The translations under genes were made by a program, and so were the position numbers. From Apostichopus japonicus (taxonomy: Eukaryota; Echinodermata; Holothuroidea; Aspidochirotida; Stichopodidae), in assembly GCF_037975245.1 (NCBI RefSeq), contig NC_092562.1, forward strand, positions 25,169,054 to 25,233,053: DNA of 64,000 nt, read 5' to 3'. Positions 24,255 to 58,638 of the stretch are shown here, in pieces (position 1 is the stretch's first letter; every line of letters begins with the position of its first letter). The notes below the pieces were generated by a model that worked only from the letters and a program-made list of their open reading frames with translations, did no database searches and was not told the origin of the DNA.

Positions 24255-24348
24255 ATGGCTCAGCCTTATTCAGGTGTATCAAACGTATCTCAGTGTTGTG
24301 AAATACTCAAGTCAAACTTGAATACGCAAGAAGCAGTCGCATGGAAAG
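24255..24348 (+). CDS. gene 1 exon 1 (start codon)
   Basis: It encodes 31 residues beginning [10 protein letters not shown] and ends in phase 1 at AAAG|GTAAGG. The same exon, beginning MAQSNSDISN, is found at gene 2. Both keep the words QCCEIL and TQE. This conservation and the nearby TATA box are why I chose this start. Confidence 0.75.
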
Positions 24349-56300: not shown

Positions 56301-58638
56301 AATAAAGATTAGCCATGATGCCTCTGAAATGTCGTTCAAGGAAGGGTCCGAATATTATTTGAAAGAATATTTTCCAGGTGAAACTACTTATCGCATACCT
56401 GTTGGTTATGACAAGAGCAAAAAAGAAGTAAAAGATCTAAAGAAAGATCTTGGAAAACGCCAGCTTTCCCACATCCCTGACGAAGATATTCCCGATAAGC
56501 CCACAATTCTATCTGACAGAAAAGGTAACATTGCTAACGAGAACATAGCAAGTTGCTTTGAGAAGTGGGGTAAAGAAAAAGAGAAGAGAATGATGATATT
56601 TACGGATTTGAGGTTTCCAGACCAAAATGTTCATTATCCTGCAGGTTTTGTAAGTACGAATGGGGATTTCGACGTTTTGGTCCTCTGCGATGAGTTTATC
56701 CTCTTCTGCCAAGTTAAGGGAGCAGATGAAAGTTGCCTGATTGGTGGCAAGAGAAGTACGTTAAAAAAAGCATGGGAGCAAGCTGACAAAGATCTTCTTC
56801 GTTTTGGTGAAGCCACAAGAGATTTATCGTTCATTTCCAATCTTCAGATGCACACCGCTATCGCAATGCCTAATTTGATCTCCGACAGTCTGGAGGTCTT
56901 GGGTGTTTGCAAGTATCACCGCCGATTCATACTGTGTAAGAGTGATATGGAACCGTTTTCTCGGTTTAATGCTTGGTTATCCAACATTATTAACCCAAAG
57001 AACGAAGAACTTACCAAGATTGCGACAGAAGACTATCAAACCCTATGTGCCAGATTCGTCGGTTTAATTTCAAAAGTACCAATACCCACGGAAAGACAGA
57101 TGATCCTAGATACTGATGAGATTGTTAACCCAAAATACTACGTTAATTGCAAAAGAAAACTCTATGCAATCTTAACACCAGACCAACATCGGCTAGTTGA
57201 GGCTGACAAGAAATTAGCGATAATTCGAGGTGAATTTGGAACTGGTAAAAGCCTAGTTTTGTTGGCAAAAGTTTTGAGAAGTTTGGAAGACGCGAACAAC
57301 ACATCTCAACCGATGATAATATCCATGGCCAGCATCGGCAATGATGGACACTGCTATCACAAGACGAAGTTTGAAGCTGTACATCACCTTAAGGAAATAA
57401 TTAGTTTGCCCCCTGAGAAACAAGACAAAGTTGTGTTTAGTTTCAGCGACCTGATCAGCGATTACTTTCGTTCGAAAGATTTGGTAAGAGATGAAGTGAG
57501 AACATTGGTTACTCCTGAGCTATTTCAAGGAATCTTATCGTCAAAGATCAACACAGCAAAACATGACGTTCATTTCTTCTTCGATGAGGTTCCGTCGTCC
57601 TTTCTGGAGAAATGCGAGTCTGTATTTGGAGAATTCGTCACAGATTTTGCTAACAGTTATATGTGGTTGGCTATAGCCGCTCATTCGTCAAAACCAACAC
57701 AATCACTTCATCTGAAGTATGAAGCTGTGATCGATAGGTTGATCAAAAAAGGTTATGATGATGCTCGGCTGACTAGGAGCATGCGTATTCCAAAGAATGT
57801 CTTCAACCTTGTACGGTGGATGCAAGAGAACGAATGCCCTGACTTGGATGCCATTTCCTGTGGTCATGTTATTCCTGGTCCGAAACCACTTTTCTTTGAG
57901 GTCCCGAAATGCATTTGCCAACATTCGAAAATGAAAATTAAGTTTGACGATATATTAAGGTGTCAATGCATTGAAAAAAGATTTACCGTCACTATTCAAA
58001 ATGTAATGACGAAATTTGACTTAATCGGTCAAGCTAAAAATCCACCTACTTTATCGAAATGCACTATTCTAATTTGTACAATCTTAGGTTCAAAACTCGC
58101 AAAGCCATTAATAGGCTTACTAACAAAGGCATATGCGTTGTTAAAAATAAAACTGAACTTCAACTTTGTCACTTTGCTTGACGAGCACTCTGACGACAAA
58201 GGGGATAGTCCGACTAATACAGAATTACGGGTGTTCGATCAATATACGTTCATGGGTTGCGAGAATGCTCTCATTATTGCCATTGATCCATACAGCTTGT
58301 TTCAATGTGGTAAAGGAAATCATTGGCCACACTCGATGAACGCCTTCACACGTACCACATCGCAGCACGTCCACGTCTGTTGGCCCAAGGATGAAGCGCT
58401 TCGAATGTGGCGTGGAGATTTGGACTCCCATGATGCTCTGACGGCAAGTCGCAAATATCTCACAGAAGAAGAAAAATACGCTCGGTTTGAATTTACCGAA
58501 AGTGGACGAAAAAGCACAAAGGATATAGTCGAAAAATTGGTCGAAACGAATCTAATCATCAAGATGCCTGTTTCAATGGACGAGGAAAAAATTTCTGTGT
58601 TACAGAGTGGTCTTAAAGCAATGAGTTTCAAAGGATGA
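44209..58638 (+). CDS. gene 2: NERD-like nuclease / SF1-helicase-like protein, six exons
   Basis: The exons are 44209-44314, 52114-52214, 53630-53654, 54809-54879, 55367-55420 and 56218-58638. Phases are the same as in gene 1, and the predicted protein is 925 residues. All key residues of gene 1 are kept: D271 and K286 of the nuclease-like core (again with Gln in CQVKG), Walker A GEFGTGKS (457-464), FFFDE, RSMRIP, the CxCxH...CxC insertion and FTRTT. Differences cluster after the QVK motif and between the motif-IV- and motif-V-like regions. Exon 3 lost the gene 1 acceptor and probably uses an AG three bases upstream in the aligned frame, which keeps phase. The frame is intact, so the copy looks functional. 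Function is unknown; transcript data would settle exons 1-5. Confidence 0.8.
44589..44668. repeat. (TA)n tracts beside the LTR
   Basis: Two TA tracts (44589-44618 and 44632-44668). The second ends exactly at the LTR boundary. Confidence 0.95.
44669..45341 (-). mobile_element. LTR of a Ty3/gypsy element (minus orientation)
   Basis: On the minus strand it starts TGTTATGATG and ends CTTCGTAACA, giving the usual TG...CA with TGTTA/TAACA inverted ends, 673 bp. Immediately before it on that strand is a purine-rich tract (TTTATGGGGGGA), the polypurine primer, so this is a 3' LTR. Confidence 0.8.
45342..46150. pseudogene. scrambled Ty3/gypsy pol fragments
   Basis: On the minus strand, 45461-45573 encodes the RNase H end (VHIPGMGNICADALSR, then stop) next to the polypurine tract. 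On the plus strand, 45570-45779 encodes RT palm with FGMKNAPSTF and GTYIDDVIIYSD. On the minus strand again, 45780-46074 encodes the following RT region, VTYLGHVVGGGKV to KELMRFGGMTGFYRK. The plus piece stops and the minus piece starts at the same conserved point (LNKS), so a short segment has been inverted. Flanking sequences at 45275-45405 and 46085-46213 are inverted copies of the polypurine tract and LTR start. It is inactive. Confidence 0.85.
46151..46225 (+). mobile_element. truncated second LTR end (plus orientation)
   Basis: After a G-rich polypurine tract (46137-46150), TGTTTTGATGTAGCATG begins an LTR in the opposite orientation to 44669-45341. It matches about the first 75 bp and then stops. 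Confidence 0.75.
46226..46659. other. gene 2 intron 1 sequence, no feature recognised
   Basis: Lies between the gypsy remnant and the antisense gene remnant. Nothing recognised. Confidence 0.35.
46660..47606 (-). pseudogene. PIN/CXC-type invertebrate gene, last exon, frameshifted
   Basis: The exon begins after the minus-strand acceptor CATTTTCAG at 47606. It reads HEGADTRMLLHAKYA, VVSSPDTDVLVLATTL, GLQCITGCDSVSALFLKGK, NDVRFDMFKK and ending WMTLPPAPESII. This order belongs to a large uncharacterised invertebrate family, often repeated in genomes, with a PIN/FEN-like acidic core. Near 46825-46830 the frame breaks. In the next frame the expected Cys-rich CXC-like tail is intact (CKKNKCQLPNAG, CTDLCQCKGCEN) and ends with an acidic tail and stop at 46660. 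A single-base indel therefore explains the early stop at 46713. Upstream exons were not found. It lies antisense inside gene 2 intron 1. Confidence 0.7.
47607..48934. other. gene 2 intron 1 sequence, no feature recognised
   Basis: Could hold upstream exons or flank of the antisense gene remnant, but I could not identify any. Confidence 0.35.
48935..49790 (-). pseudogene. LINE reverse transcriptase remnant
   Basis: On the minus strand, 49440-49620 reads KVGEMLNKYFTSLA..., as in the linker before the RT. The segment 49050-49235 reads KEHYGPISILSSVSKILENV and then YDFQSGFRQGSSTD, RT motifs of Jockey/CR1-type LINEs. After a frame change, LDLQEAFDTVN matches the first catalytic-Asp motif near 49000. 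Several stops and frame changes are present. Confidence 0.8.
49791..51146. other. gene 2 intron 1 sequence, no feature recognised
   Basis: Intronic, with a C run near 50090-50100. No supportable feature. Confidence 0.35.
51147..51620. repeat. local direct duplication, about 190 bp unit
   Basis: 51147-51335 is repeated at 51340-51620. Shared words include CAGCACTGAATAGGTG, ATCAGTTTTCCGTATCATGA and CTGACATCCAAAGCCGCACA. The second copy has an extra segment of roughly 100 bp in the middle (51456-51552). Confidence 0.85.
51621..52113. other. end of gene 2 intron 1
   Basis: Intronic. Alignable with gene 1 only from about 52064 (CCAGCGGCAA) to the acceptor TTGCAG. Confidence 0.45.
52114..52214 (+). 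CDS. gene 2 exon 2 (coiled-coil segment)
   Basis: Identical to gene 1 exon 2 over all 101 nt, including the donor CAG|GTATGA, although the upstream intron is unrelated. Confidence 0.8.
53630..53654 (+). CDS. gene 2 exon 3 (25-nt micro-exon, shifted acceptor)
   Basis: Where gene 1 has TATAGCAG|GAATCC, gene 2 has TATAAAGCATAAAACC. The CAG is lost, but TATAAAG gives an AG three bases earlier in the alignment. The exon then encodes HKTEHDDS plus one base and ends AGTG|GTGTGT. Phase is kept. The donor is weaker than GTGAGT in gene 1. Confidence 0.5.
54809..54879 (+). CDS. gene 2 exon 4 (acidic segment)
   Basis: 71 nt, acceptor CTTTTTAG, donor ATG|GTAATC. It encodes [16 protein letters not shown] and the EKM ending. 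Confidence 0.75.
55367..55420 (+). CDS. gene 2 exon 5
   Basis: 54 nt, acceptor TTTTCAG, donor AAG|GTGAAT. It encodes [18 protein letters not shown]. The following intron is 797 nt, the same length as in gene 1. Confidence 0.75.
56218..58638 (+). CDS. gene 2 exon 6: nuclease-like and helicase-like domains
   Basis: It starts after CTATACAG at [14 protein letters not shown] and runs 806 codons to TGA. Relative to gene 1, by hand count, about 20 of the first 169 residues differ, while the last 100 residues and the 3' flank are almost unchanged. The in-frame Met at 56095 lies in the intron. Confidence 0.92.
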   Translation, partial: GTVFCPLTEAARHHSKFSSSPLRFDGIQIKISHDASEMSFKEGSEYYLKEYFPGETTYRIPVGYDKSKKEVKDLKKDLGKRQLSHIPDEDIPDKPTILSDRKGNIANENIASCFEKWGKEKEKRMMIFTDLRFPDQNVHYPAGFVSTNGDFDVLVLCDEFILFCQVKGADESCLIGGKRSTLKKAWEQADKDLLRFGEATRDLSFISNLQMHTAIAMPNLISDSLEVLGVCKYHRRFILCKSDMEPFSRFNAWLSNIINPKNEELTKIATEDYQTLCARFVGLISKVPIPTERQMILDTDEIVNPKYYVNCKRKLYAILTPDQHRLVEADKKLAIIRGEFGTGKSLVLLAKVLRSLEDANNTSQPMIISMASIGNDGHCYHKTKFEAVHHLKEIISLPPEKQDKVVFSFSDLISDYFRSKDLVRDEVRTLVTPELFQGILSSKINTAKHDVHFFFDEVPSSFLEKCESVFGEFVTDFANSYMWLAIAAHSSKPTQSLHLKYEAVIDRLIKKGYDDARLTRSMRIPKNVFNLVRWMQENECPDLDAISCGHVIPGPKPLFFEVPKCICQHSKMKIKFDDILRCQCIEKRFTVTIQNVMTKFDLIGQAKNPPTLSKCTILICTILGSKLAKPLIGLLTKAYALLKIKLNFNFVTLLDEHSDDKGDSPTNTELRVFDQYTFMGCENALIIAIDPYSLFQCGKGNHWPHSMNAFTRTTSQHVHVCWPKDEALRMWRGDLDSHDALTASRKYLTEEEKYARFEFTESGRKSTKDIVEKLVETNLIIKMPVSMDEEKISVLQSGLKAMSFKG

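Follow-up and report, generated by a model that had tools for sequence, protein, structure and literature searches.

Tandem genes of the sea cucumber Apostichopus japonicus joining a predicted PD-(D/E)XK nuclease to a UvrD-like helicase: members of a large family and a candidate animal antiviral system

The DNA analyzed here is a stretch of 64,000 nucleotides (hereafter the window) from Apostichopus japonicus (NC_092562.1:25169054-25233053; chromosome-scale, whole assembly 671.6 Mb in 35 contigs). It carries a tandem pair of genes, gene 1 (24255-38848) and gene 2 (44209-58638), each encoding a predicted nuclease and a helicase-like motor in one protein. A preliminary description, made from the letters of the window, had proposed two intact six-exon genes, and both proved to be so, with all introns GT-AG. 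The translation of gene 1 is letter-identical to the NCBI predicted protein P0001 (923 amino acids), and gene 2, starting with ATG at 44209, is open over 925 amino acids. The six-exon gene 2 is our own model; NCBI isoform P0002 (863 amino acids) uses another first exon (53889-53934) and is the exact translation of four exons of gene 2. Exon 1 of gene 2 matches exon 1 of gene 1 at 60 of 94 bases without gaps (46 at the runner-up place in the window) and is, judged by this alignment, its diverged copy. The exon at 25196-25264 of gene 1 is absent from P0001 and preserves the frame if included. A contig of 3,272 bases encodes a related protein, P0004, whose N-terminus can be aligned with exons of gene 1 separated by 8.1 kb of genomic sequence, a further hint of splicing. 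In gene 2, an ATG-started open frame runs into the copied exon 2 (52002-52214) and could give an alternative hydrophobic N-terminus. Both proteins have the order coiled-coil-like acidic N-terminus, PD-(D/E)XK nuclease and UvrD-like superfamily 1 (SF1) helicase, and the segments named earlier (GDFDVLVL through to TR) are present in both and recur in other members of the family. One long exon holds nuclease and motor, which makes expression and activity assays simple.

Table 1. Exons of the two genes and predicted domains of gene 2 (window positions; residues counted in the long exon).
Feature	Position	Strand	Basis
Gene 1 exon 1 (ATG)	24255..24348	+	six-exon translation identical to P0001
Gene 1 optional exon, frame-keeping, skipped in NCBI model	25196..25264	+	not in P0001
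Gene 1 exon 2, coiled-coil-like N-terminal segment (LWEAVRR)	32494..32594	+	P0001 match; within stretch 96% identical to gene 2 copy
Gene 1 exon 3, alternative acceptor 33846	33849..33870	+	P0001 match
Gene 1 exon 4, acidic stretch	35003..35073	+	P0001 match
Gene 1 exon 5	35568..35621	+	P0001 match
Gene 1 exon 6: N-terminal module, PD-(D/E)XK nuclease (predicted), SF1 helicase, stop	36419..38848	+	P0001 match
Gene 2 exon 1 (ATG), diverged copy of gene 1 exon 1	44209..44314	+	not in NCBI isoform P0002
Gene 2 exon 2, copy of gene 1 exon 2	52114..52214	+	not in NCBI isoform P0002
Gene 2 exon 3, 25 nt	53630..53654	+	not in NCBI isoform P0002
Gene 2 alternative first exon, isoform P0002	53889..53934	+	translation matches P0002 exactly
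Gene 2 exon 4, acidic stretch	54809..54879	+	P0002 and six-exon model
Gene 2 exon 5	55367..55420	+	P0002 and six-exon model
Gene 2 exon 6: N-terminal module, nuclease (predicted), helicase, stop	56218..58638	+	P0002 and six-exon model
Gene 2 predicted PD-(D/E)XK nuclease, residues 88-300 (E108, D152, Q165-V-K167, Q188)	56479..57117	+	AlphaFold, structure matches, hhalign
Gene 2 SF1 helicase core (Q323, Walker A 338-345, DE 456-457, R523, CxC-x(14)-CxC 565-584, GCE 680-682, R712)	57184..58437	+	

The domain ahead of the P-loop, already suspected to be PD-(D/E)XK-like, is predicted to adopt this nuclease fold. The AlphaFold model of the gene 2 nuclease (predicted local distance difference test 77, predicted template modelling score 0.74) resembled the restriction-type nucleases Cdn1, McrC, Can2 and Hjc in structure comparison. 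Among the 21 intact loci of the family, D152 is present in all, K167 in 20, and Q or E at position 165 in 20, with Q replacing E ahead of the catalytic K in 12. The best score against the Pfam NERD profile PF08378 was 12.7 bits (E 0.19, P0012) for a cut-off of 22.1 bits, and the two long exons of the window gave no match at E up to 10. The sole genome-wide match to PF08378, which exceeds the cut-off with a score of 34.8 bits, is a separate gene, L032 (C19:27749040-27749282), which is apparently split by an intron and has no helicase recognised by eye in the 3.2 kb inspected.

The motor is, by predicted fold and motifs, a UvrD-like SF1 helicase, in agreement with the SF1-like assignment made from the letters. 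The SF1A set (Q motif, Walker A lysine, Walker B DE, motif IV R, motif V G..E and motif VI R) is present, and the AlphaFold model of the motor resembles UvrD and Schlafen. A CxC...CxC insertion lies between motifs IV and V in 16 of the 21 loci, as judged by pattern. Motif II of the family is of DEVP type, and the apparent motif III is a W-led stretch without D..Q; the prokaryotic-type motif II DE-x-QD and motif III WAYDE-x-Q were not found in the family. Pfam UvrD gave no match in the long exons of the window at E up to 10 and scored 15.8 bits in P0012, below the cut-off of 23 bits; the best E-value among 16 members was 8.3e-4.

Kinship with the NERD, UvrD and Schlafen profiles, raised in the preliminary description, was borne out in part: Pfam cut-offs were not reached, whereas profile-profile alignment linked the family to prokaryotic NERD-helicases. 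Because curated cut-offs were not reached, we rejected placing the family under NERD or UvrD of Pfam or under Schlafen group III. The prokaryotic alignment, A7, comprised Haloarcula WP_014030751.1 and six others out of 45 similar records; Pfam NERD was found in four of the seven and UvrD_C_2 in all seven (E 0.001), and the PADLOC models 'Helicase' and NERD+UvrD were matched by all four of the A7 proteins tested. Aligned to A7 with hhalign, the 16-row family alignment A2 gave 96.6% (E 5.3e-10, collinear over 514 columns), and a second family alignment, A6, gave 97.0% over 341 columns, ending near motif IV. The nuclease alone gave 96.1% (E 3e-9, 137 columns) and the helicase alone 29.3% (E 6e-4), with 0.7% for the decoys of the latter. 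As one-to-one hhalign E-values are rough, the argument is carried by the decoys: swapped or reversed alignments gave at most 0.4%, and among the 30 shuffles made of each kind none exceeded 1.5%. On these profiles, the nuclease of the family is homologous to the NERD-type nuclease of prokaryotic NERD-helicases. The outcomes that would speak against such an assignment, namely the lack of a restriction-endonuclease fold or a profile match to an unrelated known family, were looked for and not found.

A tblastn of L013 against 72,556 plasmids gave eight records within an E limit of 10. The best three by E-value (0.02-0.03), covering residues 173-408, were from Haloarcula, and for two of these the annotation is nuclease-related-domain helicase; the remaining five included two MoxR ATPases. 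The same plasmid search with P0012 and L017 gave no matches. An Exiguobacterium relative in A7 adjoins a DUF2290 gene, the composition of a listed antiphage system according to excerpts of PMC10952713. Matches in Pfam, NCBIfam and PADLOC were weak throughout. Among 16 members, however, they lean in a single direction, the PADLOC matches being to Nhi (7), AbiO (6), mad8 (4), NERD+UvrD (3), RTasNERD-Hel (2) and several GajB models, with none for gene 2; NCBIfam gave weak matches at most, in three of five proteins. The NERD+UvrD model PDLC01087 is insufficient to find the family by itself, because it yielded one weak match (E 3.84) in the whole genome. A sequence search of solved structures with gene 2 alone gave no match, and with the 16-row profile 12 weak ones (best mS29, E 0.0086). 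Scans of IMG/VR and GTDB with alignment A4 gave 28 and 60 pattern matches, respectively, none of which was confirmed.

The genes had been suspected to be multicopy, and whole-genome searches with gene 2, L024, L028 and L015 as queries located 25 loci, either fetched or inside the window. Of these, 21 consist of a single open frame spanning 700 codons or more and lie on ten contigs, and four (L009, L026, L029, L031) are in two or more frames. The count, which is based on these four queries and not on the very divergent L030, is a lower bound and excludes a short fragment on C2 (query residues 623-656). L030 (C18:4817000-4821500) has a canonical GEID...EVKA nuclease motif, and the broken copy L029 lies about 4 kb upstream of it. 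The loci form tandem clusters (e.g. on C1, C2, C6, C9 and C15) and dispersed singles, with pairwise identities mostly of 17-36% among the non-close rows of A2. Since the same motifs occur in 21 intact loci on ten contigs, their recurrence is not due to chance. Key nuclease and helicase residues are kept in 20 of the 21, and both sites are lost together in the other, L025 (C15:876200-880200), which is open but degenerate: the nuclease K, Q188, the D of Walker B, and motifs V and VI are all replaced. This single case fits interdependence of the two domains.

Three protein searches found 5, 7 and 5 family proteins among 7992, 7995 and 7993 candidates scored; the matches came from A. japonicus, Holothuria leucospilota and further contigs and carry no inference on absence in other animals. 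In a tree of 26 rows (21 loci and five proteins; quick method, several long branches flagged), H. leucospilota P0009 grouped with L015 and P0010 (support 100) and P0012 with the C6 cluster (support 99). Because the Holothuria proteins join different A. japonicus members, those paralog lineages are older than the split of the two species. The ratio of nonsynonymous to synonymous rates (dN/dS) was 0.28-0.73 over nine close pairs and 0.44 for gene 1 versus gene 2, in which the fastest-changing stretch is codons 602-664, where dS is also highest. By these ratios, coding function is retained under loose purifying constraint.

The tandem arrangement seen earlier is a duplication of 32449-44179 and 52065-64000, with a diverged stretch near the beginning. 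The blocks are about 89% identical across the genes and 96-100%, mostly above 99%, in the 3' flank (about 38949-43700; 250-base bins). Because the flanks are more alike than the genes themselves, later gene conversion or a second duplication is suggested, and an assembly effect is also possible. The 3' flank of gene 1 (38949-43700) pairs with the region past 58.7 kb. A third copy, L009, lies about 15 kb downstream of gene 2, split into two frames.

Elsewhere in the window, all on the minus strand, 30403-31913 holds a 410-codon frame that matches reverse transcriptase (PF00078, 30.6 bits); another frame, overlapping it, is GIY-YIG-like by eye, and the two suggest pieces of a Penelope-like element. 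A frame at 45664-46077 resembles, by eye, a fragment of a gypsy-type reverse transcriptase. At 46713-47774, a 353-codon open frame with DTDVLV and GCD motifs matches the poxvirus G5 family below threshold (E 0.001). Rfam and tRNA scans gave no matches.

Gene structures, predicted folds, active-site conservation, homology of nuclease and P-loop, copy number and constraint are established computationally. We consider it somewhat better than an even chance that this is a holothurian multigene family of nuclease-helicases that work in the manner of Nhi-type and NERD+UvrD antiphage proteins, with foreign nucleic acid as the probable target. The SF1 motor would bind nucleic acid that is foreign or damaged, probably DNA that is single-stranded or has free ends. 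Its binding and turnover of ATP would either load or release the metal-dependent PD-(D/E)XK nuclease beside it, which would then cut the bound molecule, as a cell-autonomous surveillance nuclease. By analogy with Nhi, the motor may detect invaders by their replication or repair intermediates and gate nuclease activity. Because the motif II and III glutamines are not recognisable, an ATP-dependent switch or short-range translocase is expected rather than a processive helicase. We infer the DNA substrate, the ATP-driven activation and the role in defence from these likenesses. One result weighs against this interpretation. The helicase without its P-loop part gave 1.7% in hhalign, on a par with shuffles (1.4%), so that at sequence level common descent is supported by the nuclease and the P-loop; the remaining helicase is assigned to SF1 on motifs and fold. 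Repair enzymes, too, combine a PD-(D/E)XK nuclease with an SF1 motor, and Holliday junction resolvases are among the nearest folds of the nuclease.

The last two points would suit a housekeeping nuclease-helicase of DNA repair or recombination, DNA2-like and merely duplicated in sea cucumbers. We regard this as unlikely: at least 21 intact paralogs, mostly 17-36% identical and both clustered and dispersed, are unlike a repair gene, and the best prokaryotic matches are to defence-linked models. To a similar degree we doubt a Schlafen-like restriction family that targets RNA, in which the motor would sense nucleic acid and the nuclease would cut RNA such as tRNA. The full model had human SLFN11 (E 1.4e-8, TM-scores below 0.35) and SLFN14 as its top Foldseek matches, some SLFN14 alignments beginning at model residue 12-26, and the Pfam SLFN-g3 helicase matched at the P-loop below threshold. 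One SLFN14 alignment begins at chain residue 378, so that the nuclease might conceivably be the equivalent of the Schlafen linker. However, the two window proteins scored just 12.8 and 12.5 bits against PF09848 (cut-off 24), a SWAVDL-like motif was absent by simple pattern from the 16 rows of A2, and the nuclease is predicted to be PD-(D/E)XK, unlike the Schlafen core. Pfam gave no match to a Schlafen core in the window exons, and Schlafens were not among the structure matches listed for the nuclease model, a listing that excludes nothing. The Schlafen comparison first made from the letters holds at the level of the helicase fold.

A gene of a mobile element, or one domesticated from it and spread by transposition, is improbable: copies on ten contigs and retroelement-like pieces within the window are compatible with it, but both tandem copies retain small spliced 5' exons, the duplication includes kilobases of flank, the coding sequence is constrained, and H. 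leucospilota proteins sit beside individual A. japonicus paralogs. Least probable is a regulatory NTPase (nucleoside triphosphatase) switch with a nuclease domain for binding rather than cutting, since the altered SF1 motifs II and III and the frequent Q before the catalytic K are offset by the near-universal D152 and K167, and QxK sites occur in active PD-(D/E)XK enzymes.

We return to the antiphage-like nuclease-helicase family. Several animal immune proteins descend from bacterial antiphage systems, and echinoderms are not known to have interferon. In a more specific version, which we hold tentatively and at somewhat less than an even chance, sea cucumbers possess an animal version of the single-gene antiphage nuclease-helicases: a NERD-helicase gene, either prokaryotic in ancestry or inherited by very old common descent, would have acquired an N-terminal module of animal type together with a cysteine insertion before it expanded to more than 20 copies as a cell-autonomous arsenal of antiviral nucleases. 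Because it is built like the proven or presumed single-protein antiviral weapons of bacteria, this large, fast-diverging family may be an undescribed animal antiviral system. Among the matches listed from the open PubMed Central literature, none dealt with such a family, whether in echinoderms or elsewhere among animals, and none described NERD-type nuclease-helicase fusions in animals.

Prokaryotic NERD-helicases (Haloarcula WP_014030751.1 and the six others; PADLOC C3a187 NERD+UvrD, 'Helicase') have the same order of nuclease and motor as the family and, by eye, a similar A-x-P-N-type stretch after the nuclease. The animal proteins add the N-terminal module and the CxC...CxC insertion (16 of 21 loci), lack a recognisable motif II/III glutamine, and usually have GCE in the motif V region, where the prokaryotic relatives mostly have KGNE. 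Nhi of staphylococci, the defence model most often matched, likewise combines nuclease and helicase in one protein, although the matches inspected are confined to the P-loop region. According to PMC12904381, Nhi is a nuclease-helicase encoded by a single gene; it nicks DNA, unwinds it and has a link to phage single-stranded-DNA-binding protein. Its activity as single-gene staphylococcal immunity is also covered in passages of PMC10732053. In Gabija, GajB, grouped here with UvrD, Rep and PcrA, promotes the activity of a separate GajA (excerpts of PMC10952713), whereas the family has nuclease and motor in a single chain. Schlafens of group III (SLFN11, SLFN14) also join a nuclease to an SF1 helicase in an animal protein, with a different nuclease domain. 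If the defence role is true, echinoderms would have an ATP-gated system for cutting nucleic acid that is comparable to the Schlafens.

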